Assembly (NCBI RefSeq): GCF_014204325.1
Contig: NZ_JACHKT010000035.1
Location: 1-55,920 of the forward strand
Reading direction: 5' to 3'
Length of the DNA: 55,920 bases
Origin: Arcicella rosea
GTDB lineage: Bacteria; Bacteroidota; Bacteroidia; Cytophagales; Spirosomataceae
Both the position numbers and the translations under genes were made by a program. Each line of letters starts with the position of its first letter. Within the stretch, counting starts at the first letter, position 1. The notes under the pieces were generated by a model. That model was not told the DNA's origin. It saw only the letters and a program-made list of their open reading frames with translations, and did no database searches. Of this stretch, positions 14,521 to 31,308 are shown one piece after another.

Positions 14521-15795
14521 ATGTTAGGCATGGACTATGTTAGGATTAAAAGTTTTGTACTTGTAAGTTTGTATTTTATCAACCGTTTCAGAAATTTTAA
14601 CGTTCTCTACGAAATGCTTCCAAATATTAGTCTCCTCTTTGCCAAATTCAATTATTTTGTCAGTAAGTATTTGCAAAATAAGTATTGGAATATTGGCGTT
14701 TGCCTACTGGTTTTTCTGGTTTTTTCTTTAATATATTTTCCAGAAGCTATTAGGAAAAGAGTAAACAATGACTGGCTAAGTATTGATCTTACAGTGCAAA
14801 AGTTTGTGAATGATAAAATTGAAAAGCCTTTACAACCAACTTTAAATTTCCCTTCTGAAGATCATTTTAGAAAGCGAGACCTGAGAATTACTCCTTATTT
14901 GTTGGCAAATATATTTGGGTTAAATGCTCTTCGATTATTCTATTTACAGATTTTATTACTTCCTGTTTTTATTTGGTTTTCAATCAGAATCATTTTTCGG
15001 GTCACCAAGAATGCTGCTTTGAGCTTTTGGGCAACCATTGCATTATTGTTTTCTTATGTTGGAAATTCATTTAATTACGATACGCTTTTTTACGATTCTT
15101 ACGCTTATCTTGGTTTATTGATTGCCCTGTATTTTTACAAAAAACCAATAAGTATTTTGTTTTTGTTAGCAAGTTATTTTGTTGATGAAAGAAGTATCGT
15201 TCCCTCTTTGATTATTCCCTTATTCGCTGGATTGGCTACTTTCCCTTTAGAGCAAACAACACAAGATTTTAAAACTACGTTTCAGAAATTATTTATCCAT
15301 AACAAATCATTTTGGATGGTTTTTATCAGTGTGTTGATTTATATTTTTATCAGAATTTTATTTTACAAAAATTATCATTTAGATACGCCTATCGGAAAAG
15401 ATAGTGGTGTTTCATTAGGATTAGGCTTTATCCATCGTACAAAAATTCCTTTTGCTATTTTCTCTTCATTAAAATTAAATTTACTTCTTATCTTATCTAC
15501 GTCTTTTTACTTAATCAAAAAGAAATATTACATAGTAGCACTTTGGTTTATTGGAATTTTTGTGGCTTGTTTTTTAGTAGGAACAGCCGTTGAAGATGTT
15601 ACAAGAAGTTTGGCTTATACTTTTTTACTTGTTTTTGTGGTCTATTTATTGGTAGGACAAACGAATGAAAAAGTGAGTAGGTTTATTTATTTCATTGCTT
15701 TGGTAAATATTTTAACGCCAACTTATTCATTATTGTCTAGTTTGTATAGAATAGAAGCTTTCAGTTGGTTTGTTCATTTTTCACAGAAATATTAA
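14521..15795 (+). CDS. Polytopic membrane protein of unknown function
   Basis: 424 residues from the first ATG (14521); a TTG at 14500 would add seven. About ten hydrophobic helices are visible, for example IGVCLLVFLVFSLIYF, SFWATIALLFSYVG, ISILFLLASYFV, YYIVALWFIGIFVACFLVG and YTFLLVFVVYLLVG. A loop of about 70 residues follows the first helix (RKRVNNDWLSIDLTVQKF...). The overall pattern of many helices and one early soluble loop resembles polytopic glycosyltransferase or polysaccharide-related membrane proteins, but no signature of such enzymes could be recognised. It is followed 35 bases later by the AEC transporter gene on the same strand. Location in the inner membrane is clear; role is unknown. 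Confidence 0.6.
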   Translation: MLGMDYVRIKSFVLVSLYFINRFRNFNVLYEMLPNISLLFAKFNYFVSKYLQNKYWNIGVCLLVFLVFSLIYFPEAIRKRVNNDWLSIDLTVQKFVNDKIEKPLQPTLNFPSEDHFRKRDLRITPYLLANIFGLNALRLFYLQILLLPVFIWFSIRIIFRVTKNAALSFWATIALLFSYVGNSFNYDTLFYDSYAYLGLLIALYFYKKPISILFLLASYFVDERSIVPSLIIPLFAGLATFPLEQTTQDFKTTFQKLFIHNKSFWMVFISVLIYIFIRILFYKNYHLDTPIGKDSGVSLGLGFIHRTKIPFAIFSSLKLNLLLILSTSFYLIKKKYYIVALWFIGIFVACFLVGTAVEDVTRSLAYTFLLVFVVYLLVGQTNEKVSRFIYFIALVNILTPTYSLLSSLYRIEAFSWFVHFSQKY

Positions 15796-18016: not shown

Positions 18017-20134
18017 TTAAACCGCCTTCATACTCAAAGCAATTCTTTTTCTGGCGATATCAACTTCCATTACTCTTACTTGTACTTGTTGTTGTAATTT
18101 CACCACCTGATTGGGGTCTGAAACGTATTGATTGGCTAATTGAGAAATATGTACTAAGCCATCTTGTTTTACGCCAACATCTACAAAACAACCAAAAGCA
18201 GTAATGTTAGTTACGATACCCGGAAGCACCATTCCTTCATATAAATCTTCTACTTTTTTCACATTAGCGTCAAATTCAAAAGCTATTAATTGTTCACGAG
18301 GGTCACGTGAAGGTTTTTCTAATTCTTTCAAAATATCTTGAAGTGTGAGTAAACCTACTTTTTCATTGGCATAAGCGTTTAAATTCAGCCGTTTTCTTAA
18401 TTCAGCCGAACTCATCAAATCTTTTACTGAACACTTTAAATCTTTCGCCATTTTTTCAACAATCGGATACGTCTCTGGGTGAACTGCCGAATTATCTAAA
18501 GGATTTTCTGCATTATGAATTCTGAGGAAACCAGCACATTGTTCAAAAGCTTTTTCACCCAAACGAGCTACTTTTTTAATTTGCTGACGAGATTTAAACT
18601 CTCCATTTTCCTGACGATACTTCACAATGTTGGCAGCTAAAGAAGGTCCCAAACCAGCAACATAACTCAATAAATGCTTGGAAGCCGTATTCAAATTTAC
18701 GCCAACAGCATTTACACAACTTTCTACCACAGTGTCCAAAGTCCCTTTTAGTAAATTTTGGTCAACGTCGTGTTGATATTGCCCAACGCCAATAGATTTT
18801 GGGTCGATTTTAACTAATTCTGCCAAAGGATCCATCAATCTTCTACCGATAGAAACTGCTCCACGAACGGTTACGTCTTTATCAGGAAATTCTTCACGTG
18901 CAATAGGAGAGGCGGAGTAAATAGACGCTCCTTGTTCTGAAACTACAAATATTTGTGGTACTTTTTTGAAAGCTAATTTCTTAACAAAATCTTCAGTTTC
19001 TCTTCCCGCTGTACCGTTTCCGATGGCAATGGCGTCAATTTGATACTTTTCAGCAATAGCTAAAACGGTATTTTGTGCTTCAATAGATTTGTCAAATGGA
19101 TAAATGACCGTATCGTGCAATAAATTTCCTTGAGCATCTAACACAACGGTTTTACAACCTGTACGATAACCAGGGTCGATAGCCAATACTTTTTTCTGTC
19201 CAAGTGGTGAAGCCAACAATAATTGACGAAGGTTTTGTGCAAAGATTTTTATGGCTTCTGTATCTGCTTTTTCTTTTGAAAAACCTGCGTATTCGTTTTC
19301 GATAGAAGGTTTCATCAATCTTTTATAGCAATCGGTGATAGATTCTTCTACGATTTTTTTAGCATCAGGTAAGCCTTTTAAGAAAATTCTATCTAATGCT
19401 CCTAAAGCGTTGTCTTCTTCTGGAGAGATACTAACGCTCAAAAATCCTTCTTCTTCGCCACGACGTAAAGCCAATAAACGATGTGAAGGTACTTTTTTCA
19501 AAGGTTCATAAAAATCAAAGTAATCTTTGTATTTGATGCCTTCTTCGTCTTTGCCTTTTTTTACTTTGGCATAAACCATTGCTTCACGCTCAAATACTTT
19601 TCTGACTGCATTTCTAGCTTCTACATTTTCGTTAATCCATTCTGCAATAATATCTCTTGAACCTTGTAAAGCTTCTTCTACATTTGCTACTTTATCATTC
19701 AAAAAAGCTTCTGCTTTTTTAAATACATTAGCCTCTTTTTGCTCGAAAATTAATTTTGCCAAAGGCTCTAAACCTTTTTCAATCGCAATACTTGCTCTTG
19801 TTTTACGCTTTTGTTTGTATGGTAAATAAAGGTCTTCTAGTTCTTGTAAATAATAAGCATTGTTAAGCTTTTCTAACAATTCTGGCGTCATTTTTCCTTG
19901 TTCTTCAATAGATTTTATGATGCCTTCTCTGCGTTTATCTGCTTCTTTGAGTTTGCCTAAAAGCTCTTTAATATCAAGGATTTGTACTTCATCTAAACTT
20001 CCCGTTGCTTCTTTTCTGTATCGTGCAATGAACGGAACTGTTCCACCTTCCTCTAATAAATTAATCGTATTTTGAACTTGGTTAACGTTTACGCCAACGG
20101 TTTTGGCAATAATTGAAAGCTGTGTTTTATTCAT
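18017..20134 (-). CDS. tex: Tex-family RNA-binding transcription accessory protein
   Basis: 705 residues, slightly shorter than typical Tex (about 720-780). Domain order is that of Tex: N-terminal helical region (VPFIARYRKEATGSLDEVQI, LEDLYLPYKQKRKTRA), the YqgF-like RNase H fold (VLAIDPGYRTGCKTVVLD, near residue 315), helix-hairpin-helix motifs (NLNTASKHLLSYVAGLGPSL, then FKSRQQIKKVARLGEKAFEQ) and a C-terminal S1 RNA-binding domain (YEGMVLPGIVTNITAFGCFV...QDGLVHISQLA). It binds nucleic acid and associates with transcription; its deletion affects gene expression in several bacteria. It is monocistronic here. Confidence 0.95.
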   Translation of the reverse strand: MNKTQLSIIAKTVGVNVNQVQNTINLLEEGGTVPFIARYRKEATGSLDEVQILDIKELLGKLKEADKRREGIIKSIEEQGKMTPELLEKLNNAYYLQELEDLYLPYKQKRKTRASIAIEKGLEPLAKLIFEQKEANVFKKAEAFLNDKVANVEEALQGSRDIIAEWINENVEARNAVRKVFEREAMVYAKVKKGKDEEGIKYKDYFDFYEPLKKVPSHRLLALRRGEEEGFLSVSISPEEDNALGALDRIFLKGLPDAKKIVEESITDCYKRLMKPSIENEYAGFSKEKADTEAIKIFAQNLRQLLLASPLGQKKVLAIDPGYRTGCKTVVLDAQGNLLHDTVIYPFDKSIEAQNTVLAIAEKYQIDAIAIGNGTAGRETEDFVKKLAFKKVPQIFVVSEQGASIYSASPIAREEFPDKDVTVRGAVSIGRRLMDPLAELVKIDPKSIGVGQYQHDVDQNLLKGTLDTVVESCVNAVGVNLNTASKHLLSYVAGLGPSLAANIVKYRQENGEFKSRQQIKKVARLGEKAFEQCAGFLRIHNAENPLDNSAVHPETYPIVEKMAKDLKCSVKDLMSSAELRKRLNLNAYANEKVGLLTLQDILKELEKPSRDPREQLIAFEFDANVKKVEDLYEGMVLPGIVTNITAFGCFVDVGVKQDGLVHISQLANQYVSDPNQVVKLQQQVQVRVMEVDIARKRIALSMKAV

Positions 20135-20282
20135 GAATTTGTATAAAATATAAACTTGACAGAGAAGTAATTAAGCGTATCTGACAGTGTTTGAATCTTG
20201 TTTTTGCTCAAATGATAATGCTTTAAAAAGCTTTTTTTCTAAATGATGTTACGTTTTTTGTTCGCTAAAATACGGATTTGTT

Positions 20283-20738
20283 TTATTCATTCCTCAACAT
20301 TTCGATATGTTCGATGCCATCTTCTAAATAAATTTCACTAACTTGTTGAAAGCCAAAAGATTCATAAAATTGCTTTAAATATAATTGTGCACCGATTCTG
20401 ATTGGACTGCCCGCAAAGATTTCTTCCATCATTTCAATTGACTTAAACATTAAAGTTTTACCAAAACCACCGCCACGAGCTAAAGGAGAAGTAACAACTC
20501 TACCAATTGAGGCTTCTTCATAGGAAATACCGGGTGCAATTAAACGAGTATAGGCTACAATCTTTTGACTGCTGGTATCAAAACCAATAAAGTGAAAAGA
20601 AATTAAGTCTTTATCGTCTAAATCTTGGAAAGGACAATTTTGTTCAACAATAAAAACCTCATTACGAAGTTGTAGAATTTGGTATAATTCGATTGTAGTT
20701 AAGTCTCTGAAATGCTTGAGGTACCAGTGAATGTTCAT
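20283..20738 (-). CDS. ElaA-like GNAT acetyltransferase
   Basis: 151 residues from the ATG at 20738 (MNIHWYLKHFRDLTT), the normal start for ElaA-type proteins. A longer frame to 20810 adds 24 residues without family character and runs into the promoter of the divergent gene. Family marks are LYQILQLRNEVFIVEQNCPFQD, the acetyl-CoA loop RVVTSPLARGGGFGKTLM and a C-terminal LKQFYESFGFQ. It is expected to transfer an acetyl group from acetyl-CoA to a small amine or protein; the substrate is unknown. It is divergent from the gene at 20821. Confidence 0.85.
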   Translation of the reverse strand: MNIHWYLKHFRDLTTIELYQILQLRNEVFIVEQNCPFQDLDDKDLISFHFIGFDTSSQKIVAYTRLIAPGISYEEASIGRVVTSPLARGGGFGKTLMFKSIEMMEEIFAGSPIRIGAQLYLKQFYESFGFQQVSEIYLEDGIEHIEMLRNE

Positions 20739-20792
20739 TATGAATTTAGTTTTGATGAGTAATTGATACAATCGTGAATATACAAAGTTTAT

Positions 20793-20800
20793 TATCTTTG
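20793..20800 (+). promoter_or_regulatory. Possible -7 promoter element
   Basis: tatctttg matches the Bacteroidota -7 consensus TAnnTTTG and lies 20 bases before the ATG at 20821. No clear TTTG at the -33 position was found at the usual spacing. Confidence 0.4.
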
Positions 20801-20820
20801 TAAAACTCAAACTTTCAAAT

Positions 20821-22428
20821 ATGCTAAATAGATTTATCTGGATTTTATTGCTACTGTTTACTTTCCAAGTCGGGAAGGCTCAGAATTCACTTCCTGAATA
20901 TGAGTTAGCTTATAAAAAAGCACTAGAATTATATAAAAATCACGAGTACGAAAAAGCAAAATTTGCCTTCACGAATCTCTCCAATAGCCAATTGGTCTCA
21001 GCACTTGTGCCTAATTCTTTTTATTTTTCTGCATTAAGTGCGATAAAACTAAAAGAATATTCAGCGGCGAAAACTGCATTGAAGAATTTGATTACAGTTT
21101 ACCCGTCGTGGACTGATAAAACTGAAATTAACTTTTTGTTGACACTTTTGGCTTTTGAAGATAAAAAATATTCGGAAGCTTTTGGCATTGCTCAAAAAAT
21201 CCCAGCAGATTCTTTACAGGATGATTTGAACGAGATGAAAGCATTTTACGTACGTAAGATTGACGCTCCAAAATTAGTTCAAGAATTATCTAAGAAATAT
21301 CCTAACGAAACAAGTTTGTCGGATAAAGTGCAACAAAATATCGTCATTAATACTACTTCTGCTGGTGTTACAAAGTCAAGAACAAGTAAAGGCTATTTCA
21401 ATTTTGGCTTATTGTTACCAGTTGAAATTGATAGTTTTGGACCAGATAAAACCCGTAAAAATCAGTATGCATTGGATTTATATCAAGGTATGAAACTAGC
21501 GAAAGCACAACTTTTGAAAGAGGGAATTACCTTGAATTGCTTTGTTTATGACATGATAAACGAGCCTGATGAAATGCTTGAGCTTGTAAATAATCGTTCT
21601 TTTCAAATGATGGATTTGTTGGTTGGTCCACTTTATACCGAAACCAATAAAATCGCAACAGCTTATTGTGAAGCCAATCAGATTCCGATTGTGAATCCGA
21701 TGTCGAACAATCAAAAGATTTTACAAGATTATAACTTGTCTTTCTTGGCACAACCTTCATTGGCGATGCAAGCTGCTAAAGCGGCAGATTTTGTGAGCAG
21801 ACAAGCATTTTTGGGAAGAAATACTGCGATTTATTATTCTGATGCACAAAATGATTCTCTGATGGCGGTAAGCTATCGTGAACAAATGGAAAAGATTGGT
21901 TATGAAATTGTGAAATTCGAGAAGATTAAATCTTATTCGGAAGACATCGTCGCTAAACTACCTGAAAAAAGAGTGAGTCATATCTTCATGTCAACTTCTG
22001 ATAAAAAGGCTGGACTTTCGATGATTACAGCTTTGAATAAAAAAGAAATCATGACGCCACTTGTTACCACAGCAGAGGCTTTTAATTCTTATAATTTGAG
22101 TAATGGTACTTTGTCGGGAAGAGAAATTTATTGTATTAATCCTGAATTTGTAGATAATGAAAAACCAGAAGTAGATGCTTTTCGTAAAGATTATTTAGCG
22201 AAGTATGGCGTAATTCCTTCTTATTATGCTTTTCATGGTTATGATTTAGCACTTTTTTGGGGAAGATTATTCGGTAAAAATGGTTATAATATCAGGAAAA
22301 GCTTAGATACGCCCGCTACTTACAACAATGCTTATACTTTAATGGGCTTTAATTATTTCAAATCACAAGACAATCAAATTTGCCCAATAACAACTTTAGA
22401 TAATTTTAAGTTTGTATTGGCAAAGTAG
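20821..22428 (+). CDS. Exported TPR plus periplasmic-binding-protein-like protein
   Basis: 535 residues with a signal peptide (residues 1-20, ending VGKAQ). Residues about 25-150 form TPR-like helical repeats (YELAYKKALELYKNHEYEKAKFAF, PNSFYFSALSAIKLKEYSAAKTAL). From about residue 190 the chain resembles a type I periplasmic binding fold (FGLLLPVEID, DLYQGMKLAKAQLLKEGITL, VGPLYTETNKIATAYCEANQIPIVNPMS, GREIYCINPEFVD). This TPR-plus-binding-fold architecture recalls LpoA-type activators of peptidoglycan synthases as well as amino-acid-binding proteins. No ABC transporter genes are nearby, so a cell-wall role is at least as likely as solute uptake. It is monocistronic. Confidence 0.7.
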   Translation: MLNRFIWILLLLFTFQVGKAQNSLPEYELAYKKALELYKNHEYEKAKFAFTNLSNSQLVSALVPNSFYFSALSAIKLKEYSAAKTALKNLITVYPSWTDKTEINFLLTLLAFEDKKYSEAFGIAQKIPADSLQDDLNEMKAFYVRKIDAPKLVQELSKKYPNETSLSDKVQQNIVINTTSAGVTKSRTSKGYFNFGLLLPVEIDSFGPDKTRKNQYALDLYQGMKLAKAQLLKEGITLNCFVYDMINEPDEMLELVNNRSFQMMDLLVGPLYTETNKIATAYCEANQIPIVNPMSNNQKILQDYNLSFLAQPSLAMQAAKAADFVSRQAFLGRNTAIYYSDAQNDSLMAVSYREQMEKIGYEIVKFEKIKSYSEDIVAKLPEKRVSHIFMSTSDKKAGLSMITALNKKEIMTPLVTTAEAFNSYNLSNGTLSGREIYCINPEFVDNEKPEVDAFRKDYLAKYGVIPSYYAFHGYDLALFWGRLFGKNGYNIRKSLDTPATYNNAYTLMGFNYFKSQDNQICPITTLDNFKFVLAK

Positions 22429-22435
22429 ATTTTTA

Positions 22436-22680
22436 GAAGTGAGATGTTAGATACAAGATACAAGAGGAAAGAAGTGAGATATAAGAGATAAGATGCAAGA
22501 AATAAGATTCGAGATTTAAGAATTGATGAAATAAAAAGTTATTAAGTAAGATTTATCAATCATAATTTGATTATCAATACCTTAGATTATGTCTTTTCTC
22601 TTCAATAATGTTTCTTTTATCTTATATCTTGTTTCTTTCCTCCTGCCTCTTGCTTCTTGTATCTAATATCTTGTTTCTCC
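22436..22680. repeat. Long imperfect inverted repeat, purine-rich then pyrimidine-rich
   Basis: The left arm (about 22436-22522) is built of words such as gatacaag, gaggaaag and gatataag. The right arm (about 22604-22680) is its imperfect reverse complement (cttatatc, ctttcctcc, cttgtatc). Both arms are made of degenerate short repeats. The structure fills the gap between the binding-protein gene and hemL and may serve as terminator; it has no coding potential that I can see. Confidence 0.6.
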
Positions 22681-22695
22681 ACAAAAACAAAAACA

Positions 22696-23979
22696 ATGAC
22701 ACAATCAGAACAACTTTTTCAAAAAGCTAAAAACTTTATTCCTGGAGGCGTGAATTCGCCTGTGAGAGCATTTCGTGCAGTAGGAGGAAACCCAATTTTT
22801 ATAAAATCAGCCAAAGGTGCATACTTACATGATGAAGATGGAAATTCATACATAGAATTAATCAATTCTTGGGGTCCAATGATTTTAGGTCATGCCCATG
22901 AATTGGTAGAAAAAGCCGTTGCCGATGCCATTCAAAGCGGTTTTTCATTCGGAGCTCCCACTCGTAGAGAAGTAGAAATGGCAGAATTGATTTGTTCGAT
23001 GGTTCCATCAGTTGAAAAAGTCCGCATGGTAAACTCAGGAACAGAAGCAACGATGTCGGCAGTAAGAGTAGCTCGTGGTTATACAGGTAGAGACAAAATC
23101 ATTAAGTTTGAAGGAAACTATCACGGACACGGAGACTCATTTTTGATTGCCGCAGGTTCAGGCGTAATGACATTCGGAAGTCCAGATTCACCGGGCGTAA
23201 CCAAAGGCGTAGCCAACGATACTTTAACAGCTCCATATAATGATTTAGCAGCCGTTCAAACTTTGGTAGATGCCAACAAAGGAAACATCGCTTGTATCAT
23301 TCTTGAACCCGTAGTAGGAAATATGGGCTTAGTAAAACCCGCAGAAGGTTTCTTAGAAGGACTAAGAAGTATCTGTGATAAAGAAGGAATCATCTTGATT
23401 TTTGATGAAGTAATGACAGGCTTCCGTTTGTCAAAAGGAGGTTTCCAAGAGCGTTGTGGCGTTACTCCTGATATGACGACAATGGGAAAAATCATCGGCG
23501 GAGGAATGCCAGTAGGAGCGTATGGCGGTAAAAAAGAAATCATGGATTGCGTTTCGCCAGCAGGACCAGTATATCAAGCAGGAACATTGTCAGGAAATCC
23601 AATTGCGATGGCAGCAGGTTTAGCGATGTTGAATCACTTGAACGAAACGCCTTCGGTTTATACCCGTTTGGAAGAAGTAGGCACAAGATTAACCGATGGT
23701 ATGAAAGCAAACATGGCTAAATTAGGATTGAATTATACCTTAAATCATGTTGGTTCAATGTTTACGCTATTCTTTACCGATAAGCCCGTAAACAATTTTG
23801 AAGATGCAAAAACTTCTGATACTGTAGCATTCGGAAAGTACTTCCAAGCGATGTTGAAAAGAGGCATTTACTTAGCACCATCACAATATGAAGCCATGTT
23901 CCTTTCAACAGCCTTGACAGACGAACATATAGCAACTATTTTACAAGCCAATTACGAAAGCTTACAAGAAATCCAGTAG
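22696..23979 (+). CDS. hemL: Glutamate-1-semialdehyde 2,1-aminomutase
   Basis: 427 residues from the ATG at 22696 (MTQSEQLFQKAKNFIPGGVN), matching the usual length. The upstream TTG frame adds 13 residues from the intergenic repeat. This class-III PLP aminotransferase fold enzyme shows VNSGTEATMSAVRVARG, YHGHGDSFLIAAGSG, LIFDEVMTGFR (PLP Asp), GGGMPVGAYGGKKEIM (PLP Lys) and YQAGTLSGNPIAMAAG. It converts glutamate-1-semialdehyde to 5-aminolevulinate, the C5-pathway precursor of haem. Other haem genes are not adjacent. The stop codon is immediately followed by a small hairpin (23980-23998). Confidence 0.97.
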   Translation: MTQSEQLFQKAKNFIPGGVNSPVRAFRAVGGNPIFIKSAKGAYLHDEDGNSYIELINSWGPMILGHAHELVEKAVADAIQSGFSFGAPTRREVEMAELICSMVPSVEKVRMVNSGTEATMSAVRVARGYTGRDKIIKFEGNYHGHGDSFLIAAGSGVMTFGSPDSPGVTKGVANDTLTAPYNDLAAVQTLVDANKGNIACIILEPVVGNMGLVKPAEGFLEGLRSICDKEGIILIFDEVMTGFRLSKGGFQERCGVTPDMTTMGKIIGGGMPVGAYGGKKEIMDCVSPAGPVYQAGTLSGNPIAMAAGLAMLNHLNETPSVYTRLEEVGTRLTDGMKANMAKLGLNYTLNHVGSMFTLFFTDKPVNNFEDAKTSDTVAFGKYFQAMLKRGIYLAPSQYEAMFLSTALTDEHIATILQANYESLQEIQ

Positions 23980-23998
23980 CTCGGATTTCCAATCTGAG
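23980..23998. repeat. Small hairpin related to the cassette-flanking repeats
   Basis: ctcggatt-tcc-aatctgag forms an 8-bp stem (one G-U pair) around a TCC loop directly after the hemL stop. Loop, stem length and sequence resemble the inverted repeats at 24281-24299 and 26484-26500, so it is probably a diverged third copy. Confidence 0.55.
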
Positions 23999-24008
23999 AA
24001 AATTTTAC

Positions 24009-24260
24009 TAATGAAATACTTGATGAAATAGGCATTTAGTAAGATTGAATGGTCATCTAGTAAACTGAAACAGGCATCTAGTAAGATTGAATGGTCATCT
24101 AGTAAACTGAAATAGGCATCTAGTAAGATTGAATGGTCATCTAGTAAACTGAAACAGGCATCTAGTAAGATTGAATGGTCATCTAGTAAACTGAAACAGG
24201 TATTTAGTAAGATTGAATAAGCATAAAGTAAAATGAAATGCTCATAAAGTAAGATTGAAT
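24009..24260. repeat. Tandem array with 21-bp period (42-bp double units)
   Basis: Eleven 21-bp units run from 24030 to 24260. Two alternating types (core catctagtaagattgaat, and core catctagtaaactgaaac) form four nearly identical 42-bp double units at 24030, 24072, 24114 and 24156. A fifth type-one unit (24198) and two diverged units (24219, 24240) follow. A further degenerate unit may precede (24009-24029). Units are contiguous with no unique spacers. The period equals two turns of B-DNA, so each core lies on the same helix face, as in binding-site arrays. The array fills the gap between hemL and the ATPase/HNH cassette; together with the hairpins it accounts for all of this 366-base gap. 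Confidence 0.85.
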
Positions 24261-24264
24261 AGGC

Positions 24265-24298
24265 ATAATTAAAACCGTAGGTCGGGTTTCCAACCCGA
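24265..24298 (+). repeat. Left 34-bp inverted repeat of the ATPase/HNH cassette
   Basis: This copy and the reverse complement of 26484-26517 agree at 31 of 34 bases. Its inner end is a hairpin (gtcgggtt-tcc-aacccgac, 24281-24299); its outer end reads ataattaaaaccgta. There is no T-run after the stem, so a plain terminator is unlikely; it resembles a REP-type palindrome. Confidence 0.75.
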
Positions 24299-24345
24299 CT
24301 TGCTGAAAAAACTAAAAATCATTGACTCCTAAATTTGAATAAAAA

Positions 24346-25722
24346 ATGAATGCGTTTAGACAAAATACAGACCAATTTGGGGTTTATTTGAATAAGCTAT
24401 ATCTAAAAAATGTACGCTGTTTTAAAGGTAATCATGAAATTAATTTGAATGATGGGAATAATAAGCCTATTCAATGGACGGTGATTTTAGGAAATAATAA
24501 TGTTGGAAAGACTACTTTATTGAGGGCTTTGGCGTCGCTTCAGTTTCAGCTTTTTGAAGGAGAGAAAGACATTAAAACTAATGTTAGAAATTTAAATATT
24601 TTTAGGAAATACATATCTTTTAAAAAGAATTTTCTTTTTTTTGGATACCAATTATTGACTACTAACAACAATGAATTAATTCCATTGAAAAATTCATCGT
24701 TTGATGATAAAGGAAATATATTGTTTGCAATTGAACAGGGAATAGTTGAAGAGTTATTATCAGATTGGATAACAAATGTAGATTTAACTTCATTTATAGT
24801 AAATGATTTAGTTAATGAAAAGCTAACTTACACTGGATTTTTAAAGGATCGTGATGATTTTATTGTATTCGGTTACGGCACTTCAAGAATGATGGTTGAT
24901 TCTCAATCTCCAACTGAAGATAGTACACAAGGTCTGTTCGATAATAAAACCTTATTATTGAATGTAGAAGAATGGTTGAAAGAATTACATTTTGCTGCAA
25001 TTAGTAAAATTGAGGGAGCAGAAAAAAGATATAATCAAGTAAAATATGTATTGTGCAACGGATTACTACCCGATGTAAGTGATATTCGTATCCAAACGAT
25101 TCCTGATAAATCAAGCTATGAAACCTTTCCTGAATTTTTGACCTCGAACGATTGGGTACGAATGGAAGATTTAGGCTATGGCTATCAAGCTACTTTGGCT
25201 TGGGTAGCTGATTTAGCCAAGCGAATGTTTGATACTTTCCCAGATTTACCTAATCCATTACATGGTTCGTCAGTTGTGTTAGTAGATGAAATTGATTTGC
25301 ATTTACATCCAGAATGGCAACGTAAAATTATAAAGTACCTAAGTGATTTGTTCCCCAATGTACAATTTATTGTTACGGCTCATAGTCCGCTTATTATCCA
25401 GTCTGCTGATAATGTAAACTTGATAATGCTTGAAAAAGATGATAATCCAGAGGGAAATGGCATTAATATCAGACAAAGATTTGGTTCATTTCAAGGTTGG
25501 ACGATTGATGAAATTTTAACAGAGTTAATGAGTTTAGGAGAACGTACTCGTTCAGATTTATACTTGAAATTGATGGAAGAGTTTGAGAATGCTATTTTAG
25601 AAAATAGTTACGAAAATGCTCAGAGCCTTTACAAGCATTTAGACGAAATTCTTTCACCAAGTAGTTATCAACGCAAAGTTTTACAAATACAAATGTCTTC
25701 TTTAATGCCCATTGGAGTATGA
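24346..25722 (+). CDS. AAA/ABC-type ATPase, PtuA-like (Septu-type defence candidate)
   Basis: 458 residues. Walker A GNNNVGKT lies at residues 49-56 inside a RecF/SMC-like N-terminus (LYLKNVRCFKGNHEINL). A long insertion follows, then a signature-like MEDLGYGYQATLAWVADL, Walker B VVLVDEIDLHLHPEWQ (about 308-323) and the switch region FIVTAHSPLIIQSAD. The C-terminal helical part begins GWTIDEILTELMSLGERTRSD. This order is that of OLD/PtuA-like ATPases that partner HNH nucleases in Septu defence and in retron effector pairs. Its stop overlaps the start of the HNH gene (ATGA), a sign of coupled translation and a stoichiometric complex. No reverse transcriptase is present, so it is not a retron. 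The defence role is inferred from family and arrangement. Confidence 0.75.
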   Translation: MNAFRQNTDQFGVYLNKLYLKNVRCFKGNHEINLNDGNNKPIQWTVILGNNNVGKTTLLRALASLQFQLFEGEKDIKTNVRNLNIFRKYISFKKNFLFFGYQLLTTNNNELIPLKNSSFDDKGNILFAIEQGIVEELLSDWITNVDLTSFIVNDLVNEKLTYTGFLKDRDDFIVFGYGTSRMMVDSQSPTEDSTQGLFDNKTLLLNVEEWLKELHFAAISKIEGAEKRYNQVKYVLCNGLLPDVSDIRIQTIPDKSSYETFPEFLTSNDWVRMEDLGYGYQATLAWVADLAKRMFDTFPDLPNPLHGSSVVLVDEIDLHLHPEWQRKIIKYLSDLFPNVQFIVTAHSPLIIQSADNVNLIMLEKDDNPEGNGINIRQRFGSFQGWTIDEILTELMSLGERTRSDLYLKLMEEFENAILENSYENAQSLYKHLDEILSPSSYQRKVLQIQMSSLMPIGV

Positions 25723-26459
25723 TTAAATTAGAAGCAGTTCCGCCACCCTCTCAACTTACACCACAATTAGTTGAAGACCTAACAGCAAAATTCAAACAAG
25801 ATGGAAGTGCTGTTTGGAATAAAGAATTTATTAAAAATAGATTACTTGAAATGAGTAATGGAAAATGTGCTTATTCTGAAATTAAACTTCGAGTAGAAGG
25901 GAAGTATGTAGAAGTAGAACATTTTTTACCTAAATCAGCATATCCAGATAAAGTAGTAGAATGGGATAATTTATTGCCTGCTAGTAAGTTTTGTAATTCA
26001 AAAAAAGGAGATAAAACCCATCCAATTGTTCATCCTGTTCGAGATATACCTAAAGAGCATCTTTACTTGGATGAACTTCATTTTATGTCAGGGAAAACTC
26101 CTAAAGGTAAGAATTCTGTAATCATATTAGGATTAAATGATTCAGAACACTTACTCAAACCAAGGTTGGCAATTCGTGATGCAATTCAAGCTGAACTTAG
26201 TAAGCAGAAATATCTCCTATCATTTTATGAAAGGGAGACAACAGAGAATCAAGGTTTATTACTTACTGGATTTCTTATAAACTTGCTGAAACAAGGAACA
26301 AGAAAAGAAGCTTATAGTGCAACGGTGGCAACGACAATATTAAACGACCCTCATTTTTTAGCAATTAAGAACGTTTTTATAGCCAATAATCTCTGGACAA
26401 GTGAAATAGAAGTATTGGAAGATGAATTAAAATTTTGTGCTTTAGATACTAAACCTTGA
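25719..26459 (+). CDS. HNH endonuclease-like protein, PtuB-like partner of the ATPase
   Basis: 246 residues, starting within the ATGA that ends the ATPase gene. The HNH/beta-beta-alpha core is at residues 50-98: C50-AYSE, the catalytic EH pair in VEVEHFLPKSAYP (H68), the WDNLLPAS segment (N84) and FCNSKKGD (N93). The catalytic His-Asn-Asn-type pattern looks intact. Each structural CxxC pair has lost one cysteine (C50/S53 and S89/C92), leaving two of the usual four zinc ligands. The C-terminal half is helical with no recognised motif. In Septu-type pairs the HNH protein cuts nucleic acid when released by the ATPase; that role is inferred here. Confidence 0.72.
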   Translation: MIKLEAVPPPSQLTPQLVEDLTAKFKQDGSAVWNKEFIKNRLLEMSNGKCAYSEIKLRVEGKYVEVEHFLPKSAYPDKVVEWDNLLPASKFCNSKKGDKTHPIVHPVRDIPKEHLYLDELHFMSGKTPKGKNSVIILGLNDSEHLLKPRLAIRDAIQAELSKQKYLLSFYERETTENQGLLLTGFLINLLKQGTRKEAYSATVATTILNDPHFLAIKNVFIANNLWTSEIEVLEDELKFCALDTKP

Positions 26460-26483
26460 CAGAAAAAGTGCCAAATCTCTTCA

Positions 26484-26517
26484 TCGGGTTGGAAACCCGA
26501 GTTACGGTTTTGATTAT
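26484..26517 (-). repeat. Right 34-bp inverted repeat of the ATPase/HNH cassette
   Basis: This is the inverted partner of 24265-24298, agreeing at 31 of 34 bases, with the same hairpin (tcgggtt-gga-aacccga, 26484-26500) on the inner side and acggttttgattat on the outer side. It lies 24 bases after the HNH gene stop and just before the response regulator gene. Confidence 0.75.
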
Positions 26518-26537
26518 CAACTCGACCTTCAGATTTT

Positions 26538-27230
26538 ATGGAAAATAATAAAAAAATATTACTCATCGAAGATGATAAAAGGGTTTCTGATAGTCTGAGA
26601 AATGGATTAGAGAAAAAGAATTATATCGTCGAACCCGCCTACGATGGTTTTATGGGAGCTAGTTTGGCTACCAATAATACCTATGATTTGATTTTGCTAG
26701 ACATCAATTTGCCTTTAATGAATGGTTTTGAAGTCTGTAAAATTATTCGTCAAAATAATATTCTTACGCCGATTTTAATGCTTACTGCGATGGGAGAGGT
26801 AGATGATAAAGTAAAAGGATTAGAAGAGGGTGCTGACGATTATATGGTTAAACCTTTTGAATTTAGAGAGCTAACCGCTAGAATTCAGGCTTTGATTCGA
26901 CGTGCGAACCAACAACAAGATGTGAGTACGGAGATTTTACGAGAAGCCAATTTGGCGATGAATTTAAGAAGTAAAACCGTAAGCCGAGATGAGCAAAGTA
27001 TTGAACTAACAGCCAGAGAATTTGAACTGCTGGAATATATGCTTAGAAATAAAGGAAGAGTATTATCCAAAATGGATATTGTAGAAAATGTTTGGGATTT
27101 GAATTTTGATACAAGTACCAACATCGTTGAAGTATATATTAATTACCTCCGCAAAAAGATAGACCGTGAGTTTGAGCCTAAACTTATTCATACTAAAACA
27201 GGCTTAGGATATGTATTAAAAACGCTGTAA
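26538..27230 (+). CDS. OmpR/PhoB-family response regulator
   Basis: 230 residues. The receiver domain (about 1-118) has the acidic pocket EDD, the phosphorylated Asp in LILLDINLPLMNGFEV, the conserved Thr in MLTAMGE and Lys in YMVKPFEFRELTARI. The C-terminal winged-helix DNA-binding domain (about 130-228) shows LTAREFELLEYMLRNKGRVLS and VYINYLRKKID...IHTKTGLGYVL. It forms a two-component pair with the kinase 95 bases downstream. The pair resembles ArlRS/CusRS-type systems that respond to envelope or metal stress, but the signal is unknown. Confidence 0.93.
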   Translation: MENNKKILLIEDDKRVSDSLRNGLEKKNYIVEPAYDGFMGASLATNNTYDLILLDINLPLMNGFEVCKIIRQNNILTPILMLTAMGEVDDKVKGLEEGADDYMVKPFEFRELTARIQALIRRANQQQDVSTEILREANLAMNLRSKTVSRDEQSIELTAREFELLEYMLRNKGRVLSKMDIVENVWDLNFDTSTNIVEVYINYLRKKIDREFEPKLIHTKTGLGYVLKTL

Positions 27231-27325
27231 GTCGCATCTGTAAGATAAACGACTTCATTGTATGAACTAATTGTGGTATTAAAATTCATAACTCATCAGT
27301 CACAATTTATCACTATTAGTAATAC

Positions 27326-28693
27326 ATGCAAATTCGTTATAAAATAGCCATTCAGTTTACCATCATTGTAGCGATTATCTTGCTGATTTTCTCTGCCATT
27401 GTTTTTCTTCGGGCAGAAAGTCAACGCAAAAAAAACTTCTATGACCGCCTGCAAGCTCGTTCAAATACTACCGCTCGTTTGTTGGTAGATGTACAAGAAT
27501 TTACCCCCAGATTATTGAAATTAATGGACAGTAATTCGTCTTTGCGTTTGCCCGACGAAGAAGTATTTGTCTATAATTTTAGAAATGAGCTACTATATAC
27601 CAATGTAGAAAAGCGAGCGAATTATCTTAATAATCATTTATTGGAAATGGTTCGGAAGGAGGGAAGAGTCACTTTTGAAAGTAATCAAAGACAAGTAATT
27701 GGGATATTGTTCGAAGGGAAATTCGACCGTTTTGTGGTAATAGCTTCTGCCACGGATAGCGTCGGCATTGAACAAAAAGAGAATCTTATCAAAACATTAG
27801 CCATCGGTTTATTGTCGGGAATACTTATCACAATAGCTTTAGGAGTATTTTTTGCCAGTCAAGCCCTGAAACCGATTCAATCAGTGAATGAAGAAATTTC
27901 AAGGATTACGGCTCATAATCTTAAAAAGAGATTAGACGAAGGCAATGGTAAAGATGAAATTGCAGCCCTTGCTGTAAATTTCAATAGTATGCTTCATCGA
28001 CTCGAAATGGCATTTATTCAGCAAAAACAATTTGTGTCACAAGCCTCGCACGAACTTAGAACGCCCTTGGCTGCTTTAAAAACAGAAGTACAAGTAGGCT
28101 TGGATGAGGAGTATTCCGCAAAGGAATATCAACAAATCTTAAATAATATTTTGAATGATACCGAAAGACTTATTCAATTATCCAATGGTTTATTGCAATT
28201 AGCTAAAGCCACAGATGATGGTGAAAAGTTTACTTTTGAGGTGCTTAGGACGGAAGATATTTTATTGAATGCCCAGAAAACAGTGCAGCAAATTCATCAA
28301 GATTATCGCATTACTTTTGATTTTGAAATCATTCCAGAAGAAGATAACCTTACTTTAATTGAAGGAAATCAAGTTTTGTTAGAAAACCTTTTTGTCAATT
28401 TGTTAGAAAACGCTTGTAAATACTCTGCCAATCAACAAGCCAATATTTTGTTAAGTTTTGATAAAAAGTATTGTATCGTAAAAATCCAAGACAAAGGAAT
28501 TGGTATTTCAAAAAGTGATTTGCCCAATATTTTTAATCCTTTTTATCGTGCCAGAAATACCAATAATATCAAAGGATTTGGCGTGGGTTTATCGGTAGCC
28601 AAACATATTATTGAACTTCACAATGGCATTATTCAAGTAAAAAGCAAATTGAATTTAGGAACTGAATTCGTTGTAAAAATTCCACATCAATGA
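27326..28693 (+). CDS. Membrane sensor histidine kinase
   Basis: 455 residues. The first membrane helix is at about 8-28 (FTIIVAIILLIFSAIVFL) and an extracytoplasmic sensor of about 130 residues follows. The second helix is at about 156-178 (LAIGLLSGILITIALGVFFA), then HAMP (ALKPIQSVNEEISRITAHNL). The HisKA domain has the phospho-accepting His in FVSQASHELRTPLAALKTEV. The ATPase domain has NLLENACKYS (N box), IQDKGIGISKSDLPNIFNPF (G1/F boxes) and GFGVGLSVAKHI (G2). It phosphorylates the response regulator encoded just upstream. The gap between the two genes holds only degenerate tcataactcatcagtcac-type words. Confidence 0.93.
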   Translation: MQIRYKIAIQFTIIVAIILLIFSAIVFLRAESQRKKNFYDRLQARSNTTARLLVDVQEFTPRLLKLMDSNSSLRLPDEEVFVYNFRNELLYTNVEKRANYLNNHLLEMVRKEGRVTFESNQRQVIGILFEGKFDRFVVIASATDSVGIEQKENLIKTLAIGLLSGILITIALGVFFASQALKPIQSVNEEISRITAHNLKKRLDEGNGKDEIAALAVNFNSMLHRLEMAFIQQKQFVSQASHELRTPLAALKTEVQVGLDEEYSAKEYQQILNNILNDTERLIQLSNGLLQLAKATDDGEKFTFEVLRTEDILLNAQKTVQQIHQDYRITFDFEIIPEEDNLTLIEGNQVLLENLFVNLLENACKYSANQQANILLSFDKKYCIVKIQDKGIGISKSDLPNIFNPFYRARNTNNIKGFGVGLSVAKHIIELHNGIIQVKSKLNLGTEFVVKIPHQ

Positions 28694-28870
28694 TATTTTG
28701 TACTTTCTAATCAAATTCTAATGTTAGGTTAAGCTCATCTTAAGATTAAAACGAGACCTTTGACGTATAAACAGTGTTCTTCTTATTTGAGATAAAAATC
28801 AAGATTTGATAAACATGAAATAATGATGGGATTTCTGTTATAACGTAGTAGAATAATTTGATCTGTTAAG

Positions 28871-28903
28871 GAATCACCGTTAGTTATGCTGACGGTGATT
28901 TTT
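28871..28903 (+). terminator. Terminator after the two-component operon
   Basis: Stem aatcaccgt/acggtgatt (28872-28880 with 28892-28900), an 11-base loop and a T-run. It ends the regulator/kinase transcript and isolates nhaD. The rest of 28694-28958 is AT-rich sequence in which I see no gene. Confidence 0.75.
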
Positions 28904-28958
28904 GTGAGTAATCATTTCTGTAAATATTTAACCAAATCCATATTCTTAAACCATAACG

Positions 28959-30230
28959 ATGCAAACTTTATTAATTCTTACTTTTGTAATTGGCTATTTG
29001 GCAATTGCTTTTGAACACACCATTCATCTTAACAAAACGGCAACTGCTTTAATAACAGGGGTATTATGTTGGACGATTTACATTCTTTTCGACCATGAAC
29101 CTGCTAAAGTTGGCGAAGAATTATCACATCATTTAGGCAGCGTTTCTGAAATACTTTTCTTTCTTTTAGGGGCGATGACTATCGTGGAATTGATTGATTC
29201 TCATTATGGTTTCAAGATTATTACCGATAAAATTACCAGTAAAAACAAAGTTACTTTACTTTGGATAATCAGTTTGATTACCTTTTTCTTATCGGCTGCT
29301 TTAGATAATCTTACCACGGCCATTGTAATGGTTTCTGTTTTGCGAAAATTGATTAAGGATAAAGAAACACGAATGTTTTTTGCAGGAATTGTCATTATTG
29401 CTGCCAATGCAGGTGGGGCTTGGTCGCCGATTGGCGATGTTACAACAACAATGCTTTGGATTGGCGGACAAGTTACTGCAACGGCTATCATCAAAGGATT
29501 GTTGATTCCGAGTTTGGTTTCCCTTTTTGTACCACTGATTTATCTTTCGTTTACGATGAAAGGAAATATTACCTCGCCATCTTCTAAAATTAGTGTAGAA
29601 AATGAAACGTATTTGGCTAGAAAACACTCTATAATAATGCTTTCAACAGGTTTGGGGATGCTTCTATTCGTACCAATCTTTAAAACCGTTACACATTTAC
29701 CTCCTTACATGGGTGTGCTTTTAGGCTTAGGAGTTGTGTGGGTTGTTTCAGAAATACTTCATCATGGCAGAGATGATGCTGAGAAAAAACCTTTTTCAGT
29801 TGCACACGCACTGAGTAAGATTGATTCTTCGAGTATTTTATTTTTCTTGGGAATTTTGTTAGCGATTGGTTCTTTAGAAGCAACACATTTGTTGACGGCT
29901 CTCGCTACTTGGATGGACAGTAGTATCGGTAATCAAGATGTGATTGTATTTGCAATAGGTATAGCTTCGGCTATAATAGATAATGTTCCTTTGGTGGCAG
30001 CATCAATGGGAATGTATGATTTAGCAAGTTTCCCGACGGATTCAAAACTTTGGGAGTTTATGGCTTATTGTGCAGGTACGGGAGGAAGTATTTTAATCAT
30101 TGGTTCAGCTTCTGGTGTAGCTGTAATGGGTATGGAAAAGATAGACTTTATGTGGTATCTAAAAAAAATAAGTTTGTTGGCTTTTGTTGGTTATTTAGCT
30201 GGAGCTATTACTTATTTGATACTTTTTTAA
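28959..30230 (+). CDS. nhaD: NhaD-type sodium/proton antiporter
   Basis: 423 residues with about 11-12 membrane helices (ion transporter superfamily). NhaD character is seen in the N-terminal VIGYLAIAFEHTIHLNKTATAL, in LSHHLGSVSEILFFLLGAMTIVELIDSHYGF, in FLSAALDNLTTAIVMVSVLRKL (the SALDNLTT ion-site motif), in ANAGGAWSPIGDVTTTMLWI and in IDNVPLVAASMGMYDL. It exchanges internal Na+ or Li+ for protons across the inner membrane. It is monocistronic, with terminators on both sides. Confidence 0.92.
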   Translation: MQTLLILTFVIGYLAIAFEHTIHLNKTATALITGVLCWTIYILFDHEPAKVGEELSHHLGSVSEILFFLLGAMTIVELIDSHYGFKIITDKITSKNKVTLLWIISLITFFLSAALDNLTTAIVMVSVLRKLIKDKETRMFFAGIVIIAANAGGAWSPIGDVTTTMLWIGGQVTATAIIKGLLIPSLVSLFVPLIYLSFTMKGNITSPSSKISVENETYLARKHSIIMLSTGLGMLLFVPIFKTVTHLPPYMGVLLGLGVVWVVSEILHHGRDDAEKKPFSVAHALSKIDSSSILFFLGILLAIGSLEATHLLTALATWMDSSIGNQDVIVFAIGIASAIIDNVPLVAASMGMYDLASFPTDSKLWEFMAYCAGTGGSILIIGSASGVAVMGMEKIDFMWYLKKISLLAFVGYLAGAITYLILF

Positions 30231-30241
30231 TGGATGTTAGT

Positions 30242-30281
30242 GAATTGCCAATAAATCATACAAACAATTTATTGGCAATTC
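30242..30281. terminator. Bidirectional terminator between nhaD and the LytS-type kinase
   Basis: A perfect 15-bp stem gaattgccaataaat (30242-30256) with 30267-30281 and a 10-base loop, lying between two converging genes. The minus-strand gene stops at 30283, directly beside the stem. Confidence 0.7.
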
Positions 30282-30282
30282 G

Positions 30283-31308
30283 CTATATCATAATTGAAAT
30301 TGTTGCTTCAACATAATCATCTTTTTGGGTTAATGTAAAAGATGCTTTGTCTTGAAAATTCAAAAACAAACGTTTTTGTAAATTCTTCATTCCAACGCCG
30401 TCTTCACTAGCCGTACTTACAATTTTTCCTGTGTTTATTACCTTTAGTGTAAAAATATTTTGACTATAATCTGATATAATTCTTAATTTCCCACCTAATT
30501 TGTTTTTACCAATTCCATGCTTGATTGCATTTTCAACTAAAAGTTGTACCGACATCGGAGGAATACTTAAACTTAATGTTTCGGGTTTAATATCGAAAGA
30601 GTAATCTAAACGTTTTTCATACCTTATTTTTTCAAGGAAAAGATAATCTCTGACTAAAGTCAATTCCATAGACAAAGGCACTAATTGCTGATTGCCCATG
30701 CTCAAAGACGTTCTCAGTAATTGAGAAAGCTCAGTCAAAGCTTGACGAGCAAGTTCTGGGTCGAAAATCGTGAGAGCCTTAATACTGTTGATGGCATTAA
30801 AAAGAAAATGTGGATTAAGTTGATTTTTCAGGTTTTCAAGTTCTGCCGTTTTCAAGGACATTTCTGCATTTGCCAATTCTAATTCTTTCTTTTGGGCTTT
30901 TCTGTTGCTTAGGAAGAGGTGAAAAAACAGAAACCAAATAATAACATATCGCACAGATTCAATAAAAAATTGATAATAATCATAAGCTTCTAAAGCGATG
31001 CCCATACTTGGTTTTCGGTAACGTTGAAAACCAAAAAAGTAATCAATCAAGAAAAAAACTAAGCCCAAGAGTAAGGAAGAAACGAAAGGGAAAACAATCA
31101 TCTGTCCGTTTTCTCGGTCTTTGGTTAAATAAATTTTTGCATAAAAGTGTGTAAAAAAAAGACCCACCAAGAAATTAATCGTTAGGTAGGAACCCAATTG
31201 CATGGGCTGGTTGAAGTATTTTGTTGTTGGTTGTCTAAGAACAAGTGTCGTAAAGAGCCACCAAGAAACTTGCATTATCCAATAAACTCGGTATGAGAAA
31301 AAATTCAT
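30283..31308 (-). CDS. LytS/YehU-type sensor histidine kinase
   Basis: 341 residues from the ATG at 31308 (MNFFSYRVYWIMQVSWW). The longer frame to 31380 would overlap the upstream gene by 17 bases. Four hydrophobic helices fill about residues 10-150 (YLTINFLVGLFFTHFYA, SSLLLGLVFFLIDYFFG, YVIIWFLFFHLFLS). Then comes the His_kinase domain with the phosphoacceptor in LKNQLNPHFLFNAINSIKAL and an ATPase domain with LVENAIKHGIGKN and GVGMKNLQKRL. Such kinases normally pair with a LytTR-domain regulator, which is not found nearby. It follows the metallopeptidase/barrel gene on the same strand by 55 bases and may be co-transcribed with it. Confidence 0.88.
   Translation of the reverse strand: MNFFSYRVYWIMQVSWWLFTTLVLRQPTTKYFNQPMQLGSYLTINFLVGLFFTHFYAKIYLTKDRENGQMIVFPFVSSLLLGLVFFLIDYFFGFQRYRKPSMGIALEAYDYYQFFIESVRYVIIWFLFFHLFLSNRKAQKKELELANAEMSLKTAELENLKNQLNPHFLFNAINSIKALTIFDPELARQALTELSQLLRTSLSMGNQQLVPLSMELTLVRDYLFLEKIRYEKRLDYSFDIKPETLSLSIPPMSVQLLVENAIKHGIGKNKLGGKLRIISDYSQNIFTLKVINTGKIVSTASEDGVGMKNLQKRLFLNFQDKASFTLTQKDDYVEATISIMI

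Follow-up and report, generated by a model that had tools for sequence, protein, structure and literature searches.

The two overlapping genes enclosed by inverted repeats in the 55,920-nt stretch of Arcicella rosea DNA analysed here (the window) are best explained as a Septu type I operon at a hotspot 3′ of hemL, around which REP elements have accreted at different times, a reading to which a probability of about 0.75 is given. The locus is a clean natural case in which alleles of a single operon, some flanked by REPs and some free of them, occupy the same site; to this are added empty sites in relatives of one carrier, exchange across genera and a swapped block of some 100 residues in PtuA. 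The features that matter are as follows.

22696..23979, plus strand: a gene which we take to be hemL, glutamate-1-semialdehyde aminomutase (Aminotran_3, E 6.7e-76; matches in all 8 genus genomes)
23976..23998, plus strand: REP at the hemL stop, GTAG (its TAG being the hemL stop) with an imperfect, diverged hairpin, CTCGGATTTCCAATCTGAG
24038..24268, plus strand: minisatellite of 11 units of 21 bp, extending into the left arm
24265..24298, plus strand: left 34-bp arm, a REP (GTAG 24277-24280; hairpin TCGGGTT-TCC-AACCCGA 24282-24298)
24346..25722, plus strand: ptuA, 458-aa ATPase, Septu type I (PADLOC PDLC00304, E 3.9e-114; AAA_15; Walker motifs conserved)
24538..24840, plus strand: PtuA hypervariable block, residues about 65-165, from amino acid identity to the G120 homologue and from codon windows
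25719..26459, plus strand: ptuB, 246-aa HNH nuclease, Septu type I (PADLOC PDLC00342, E 3.3e-76; HNH_4)
26484..26517, minus strand: right 34-bp arm, a REP in the opposite orientation (GTAA 26505-26502)
26538..28693, plus strand: right-hand neighbours, a response regulator and a histidine kinase (family scan)

The Septu operon and its inverted arms

The two 34-nt arms are complementary at 31 positions (91%) with 2185 nt between them, while 60 first-order Markov shuffles of 24001-26700 yielded no 34-mer inverted match better than 28 (mean 24.5). Both contain TCGGGTT-TCC-AACCCGA, and no T-run follows the hairpins in the window sequence. Enclosed are ptuA and ptuB, overlapping in ATGA, and according to the ORF list no other ORF of at least 80 aa. 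The first-pass annotation had described this arrangement, including the palindrome with its TCC loop in each repeat and a diverged third hairpin at the hemL stop, and it is confirmed, the third hairpin starting inside the stop codon. Its view of the pair as an ATPase/HNH system of the Septu kind is likewise borne out by the two PADLOC matches. Its 34-bp element needs qualifying: a genome search with the region matched the full length at the two window sites alone (E up to 0.001; 40 of 92 candidates scored), and it is the hairpin core that forms a dispersed family. The exact 34-bp end as the terminus of a mobile element is weakened as a candidate. In the left arm, the outer ATAA belongs to the end of the final 21-bp minisatellite unit (24248-24268), and 6 of 61 REPs, both window copies counted, have AAACC before GTAR, so that a defined end has little support from the outer 12 bp.

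PtuA and PtuB are, judged by their sequences, clear members of Septu type I. The PADLOC PtuA1 and PtuB1 models cover nearly their full length, and the Walker A residues G49-N52 and G54-T57 and D314/E315 of PtuA, together with H68 and N84 of PtuB, show conservation in 18 or more of the 19 family homologues. H68 and N84 are spaced as are H75 and N91 of Septu EcB88 (16 residues; available text of PMC13096335). The same text reports of a Septu that the ATPase and HNH motifs are both required and that it cuts the variable loop of tRNA-Tyr. The targets of PtuAB systems differ, with DNA cutting reported for another Septu (accessible portion of PMC11555353). On infection, PtuA would activate PtuB, which would cut tRNA-Tyr or DNA and so abort the infection.

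Among solved structures, the PtuA proteins with the best scores are effectors of retrons (9e8z, 9vh1), a likeness to Retron I-A (Ec78/Eco7, Ec83). The window proteins score below the NCBIfam cut-offs of the Ec78 PtuA and PtuB models. A retron reading is rejected, as Pfam scans of eight neighbours of ptuAB revealed no reverse transcriptase (hemL, the response regulator, the histidine kinase, tex, a GNAT gene, a periplasmic-binding-like gene, a transporter and a His_kinase gene) and no Rfam family match at 20000-31000. The operon is a stand-alone Septu type I operon, ordinary within the known system.

What departs from Septu type I is a strongly variable block in PtuA, residues about 65-165, with 30-33% amino acid identity to the homologue in G120, a genome of another genus, against 85-100% outside the block. 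The alignment shows a block swap within near-identical flanks in a defence ATPase, and the block is predicted to be the part deciding what gets sensed or hit. A shorter variable stretch is seen near residues 160-180 of PtuB in codon windows of the same two genomes. The PtuA structure model, built from 3 sequences with a mean pLDDT of 35.1, is of no use for placing the variable block.

The REP family and its probable RAYT

The repeats are GTAG-type REP elements, as their sequence and copy number indicate, each with GTAR followed by a hairpin, and they belong to a lineage-specific dispersed family. The core CGGNTTTCCAANCCG has 17 copies in the 5.3-Mb genome (reversed control, 0), and the wider pattern GTARNNNGNNTTTYCAANNC has 61 matches against 7 for its reversed control, and in 57 of the 61 the stem has 5 or all 6 of its pairs; the wider pattern occurs 0-3 times in each of seven congeners, whose own controls give 0-4. 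The REP-like nature proposed in the first-pass annotation is thereby upheld, and the TnpA-REP-type gene that it suggested might exist elsewhere is present on contig C4. This gene (C4:15747-16388) has a Y1_Tnp domain on family scan, is surrounded by REPs at 15606, 15661 (minus), 15722 (minus), 16391 and 16534, and is probably the cognate RAYT of the family. GTAR with a hairpin, many copies, head-to-head pairs, stop-codon overlap and a RAYT gene between REPs are all features of GTAG-type REP/BIME/REPIN elements in the available text of PMC3733652. The present family differs in using GTAA besides GTAG, and in that one outward pair encloses a defence operon; among the literature matches listed, no paper on REP-flanked defence cassettes was found.

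Among the 26 consecutive REP pairs less than 6 kb apart, GTAR faces outward in 14, of which 13 are separated by 51-117 bp and the remaining one, at 2228 bp, is the Septu pair. In nine pairs the distance exceeds 500 bp, and of these the Septu pair alone faces outward. The other eight such intervals include ordinary genes and none is outward. Genes that look ordinary by eye lie in the bracketed intervals at C4 194-198 kb, C7 120-122 kb and C8 170-172 kb, and a defence-specific association of the REPs is rejected, since bracketed intervals contain such genes besides Septu, a type IIG gene and the RAYT. Most other REPs are single or in short pairs, several beside unrelated genes. The window REPs share 11 of the 12 bp upstream of GTAR, joint highest among 1830 REP pairs, the other joint-highest pair being a local duplication at the RAYT. 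This shared flank hints at a linkage between the two, a hint weakened by the minisatellite overlap and the recurrent AAACC.

Neither REP of the Septu pair is at a stop codon. In the family as a whole, 13 of 57 REPs supply, with the TAA or TAG of their GTAR, the stop of an ORF 100 codons or more in length, against a background of 45 such stops among all 3645 GTAR in the same loci, the 13 included. Examples are C31:43055 (L035), C4:10323 (L032) and C20:66714 (L034), with ten others. Five of eight genes had relatives with which their stops could be compared (a nucleotidase-like, an NtrC-like and a glyoxalase-like gene had no comparable relative). In these relatives GTAR is at the stop in 17 of 30 sequences, namely nuoD 4/7, comB 7/8, ileS 3/7, trpA 2/5 and a GDSL gene 1/3 (names assigned by eye), the other 13 having non-GTAR stops, and in 0 of 30 is there a hairpin directly behind the stop. 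REP-free relatives thus often have GTAR at the stop already, and therefore the hairpins have been added behind an existing GTAR. Addition behind a fixed tetranucleotide is the expectation for an IS200/IS605-like enzyme. The REP hairpins would then enter 3′ of GTAA or GTAG tetranucleotides, probably by means of the resident RAYT. In one relative, G005, a separate GTAG hairpin resembling a REP follows trpA at a distance of a few bases. That stop codons are often supplied by GTAG ends is already in print (PMC3733652, in the part available), and how domesticated transposases such as RAYTs spread REPs is described as poorly understood in the accessible text of PMC8266576.

A restriction-modification gene of type IIG (PDLC03612, E 2.9e-275; 6657-11386 of L032, which is C4:5000-22000) also belongs to the C4 neighbourhood. 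It and the RAYT sit among REPs with a nuoD-like gene on one side and a TolC-like gene on the other, and neither turned up next to nuoD in any of 7 relatives, in flanks of about 1.5 kb. Within the genus, the C4 RAYT is closest, at 60-62%, to L167 2839-3471 (G005) and L168 5527-6153 (G007); both of these are about 3 kb upstream of hemL, between the GNAT gene and tex, and their loci have their own REPs of different sequence. No listed ORF lies between the GNAT gene and tex in the window.

The hemL 3′ site and exchange between genera

HemL was searched for in eight genomes of the genus, the window genome (G000) included. Directly after hemL, G003 has an operon of the same Septu subfamily, with 63% identity over PtuA and PtuB, and around it is neither GTAR hairpin nor REP, the sole hairpin after ptuB being terminator-like. 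G006 has behind hemL at least the start of a ptuA of the same subfamily, after which its contig ends. A different PtuAB is behind hemL in G002 (PDLC00268 and PDLC00331 on scan; L078 2883-4883) and in G001 (L079, assigned by likeness), and G005 and G007 have, by eye, a large secreted-type ORF there; the contig of G004 ends within hemL. The response regulator and histidine kinase of the window were not found behind hemL in the congeners. G006 has another PtuAB pair on its contig C150 (L165/L201), the ptuB match of which has one in-frame TAA.

Relatives of PtuB at E up to 1e-15 are present in 20 of 222 family genomes, its own included, where it has a single match and the operon no second copy. 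Its best match after itself is in G120 (76%, against 63% for the congener G003). G120 also has Septu behind hemL, with hairpins at the hemL stop and before ptuA: the hemL-stop position carries GTAACTCGGATTTCTAATCCGAG, and a hairpin homologous to the left one of the window is at the same place, without GTAG. After ptuB, the right REP is absent from G120 as it is from G003. The REP pattern has 11 matches in G120 (control 2) and 0 in its congeners G116-G119. All four of these other species of its genus have an empty site, where hemL is followed by a lipoprotein-like ORF with neither Septu nor GTAR hairpin behind hemL. Among 17 further PtuAB loci of the family, in stretches of 4-11 kb, hemL was not found beside the operon. 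The comparison shows the hemL 3′ side to be a recurrent Septu hotspot in this Cytophagales group, used by two PtuAB types.

At the DNA level, G000 and G120 are identical at 0.56 over the gene preceding hemL and at 0.76 over hemL itself; from the left hairpin on the similarity is higher, and it stops at the ptuB stop. Windows of 100 bp give 0.80-0.98 in ptuA, except near 0.5 at bases about 200-500, and 0.63-0.91 in ptuB. Third-position identity at identical residues is 190/367 (0.52) in hemL, 235/276 (0.85) in the part of ptuA that follows the variable block and 143/187 (0.76) in ptuB. The comparison thus shows that a block of left hairpin, ptuA and ptuB has passed between genera. The right REP is either outside the exchanged block or has since been lost in G120. 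Of the compact mobile cassette that the first-pass annotation envisaged, the horizontal movement of the two genes as a block stands. What finds no support is that the two REPs bound a unit mobilised in trans: the G003 operon is REP-free and G120 is without the right REP. A relative keeping the genes without the repeats had been named beforehand as telling against such a cassette, and G003 is one.

Probable accretion and the alternatives to it

With accretion, the two flanking REPs would have arrived separately, the left hairpin being old and having travelled with ptuAB between genera, and the right one being known from this genome alone. Several findings go against it: the two window REPs share their upstream flank, the Septu pair is the sole outward pair kilobases apart (1 of 14), the similarity of G000 to G120 begins at the left hairpin, as it would at the end of a cassette, neither REP of the pair is at a stop codon, 13 of the 30 compared stops are not GTAR, and G005 has its own hairpin behind trpA.

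Homologous recombination concerns the route of exchange and is compatible with accreted REPs. It supposes ptuAB to be old at hemL and its alleles to have been exchanged via shared flanks, with the hairpins as landmarks of homology, and it is tentatively entertained as somewhat short of an even chance. The site is the same in G000, G003, G006 (start only) and G120, PtuA is mosaic, a single block having been exchanged while its flanks stayed near-identical, and the hemL-stop hairpin is common to G000 and G120. Against these, the part of hemL adjoining the block has no raised identity to G120, its last 22 codons, tested for conversion from a G120-like donor, being at 0.68, and the empty sites of G116-G119 require either a gain in G120 or losses in the others.

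That the hairpins are kept for an RNA role in the operon, in attenuation or in stabilising its mRNA, and shield ptuAB from its neighbours hemL and the response regulator, is unlikely. Many REPs are close behind the 3′ ends of genes, and pairing in the G120 left hairpin is kept despite one changed pair (TCGGGTT/AACCCGA versus TTGGGTT/AACCCAA), but a single compensated pair is little evidence, there is no T-run behind the window hairpins and the REP-free G003 operon has its own terminator-like hairpin after ptuB.

Less probable again is a non-autonomous cassette with REP ends, in which the left REP, ptuAB and the inverted REP were moved in trans into GTAR sites by the C4 RAYT or a relative. It has in its favour an outward pair like the 13 short ones, though with 2.2 kb between, the 12-bp upstream flank common to both window REPs, an exchanged block bounded by the left hairpin and the stop of ptuB, the lack of Septu behind hemL in G116-G119 and a RAYT with its own REPs in the genome. 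Spacers in REP dimers are mostly 20-100 bp, and most families favour the head-to-head GTAG dimer; DNA inserted between dimer partners is mentioned too (PMC3733652, available text). Neither independent copy has both ends, G120 having the left hairpin only, and that without GTAG, and G003 none at its operon at the same site; the operon has no second copy in the genome, and the other eight wide REP-bracketed intervals, with ordinary genes among their contents, lack the outward orientation. Mobilisation of the block by a RAYT is possible, and RAYTs carrying gene-sized cargo would bear directly on how domesticated transposases spread REPs. Least likely of all is that the RAYT moves REP-headed, gene-sized units besides bare hairpins, so that a single-strand insertion of the IS200/IS605 kind, with the hemL-stop hairpin as its left end, brought in ptuAB behind it. 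GTAR with its hairpin at the hemL stop is common to G000 and G120, and the empty sites of G116-G119 are without it; if this reading is true, defence genes (Septu, and the type IIG gene of C4) would be loaded directly behind the GTAR stop codons of housekeeping genes.

Minisatellites are a recurrent neighbour of the REPs. The C7 array has no REP-pattern match nearby, and arrays with 21- or 42-bp units adjoin REPs in the window (24038-24268), on C4 (L032 6365-6680) and on C18. Further minisatellite or periodic sequence is at L171 about 1300-1540, L041 from 2519 and L222 9310-9693, and in G120 an ORF with a 14-residue period adjoins REPs.
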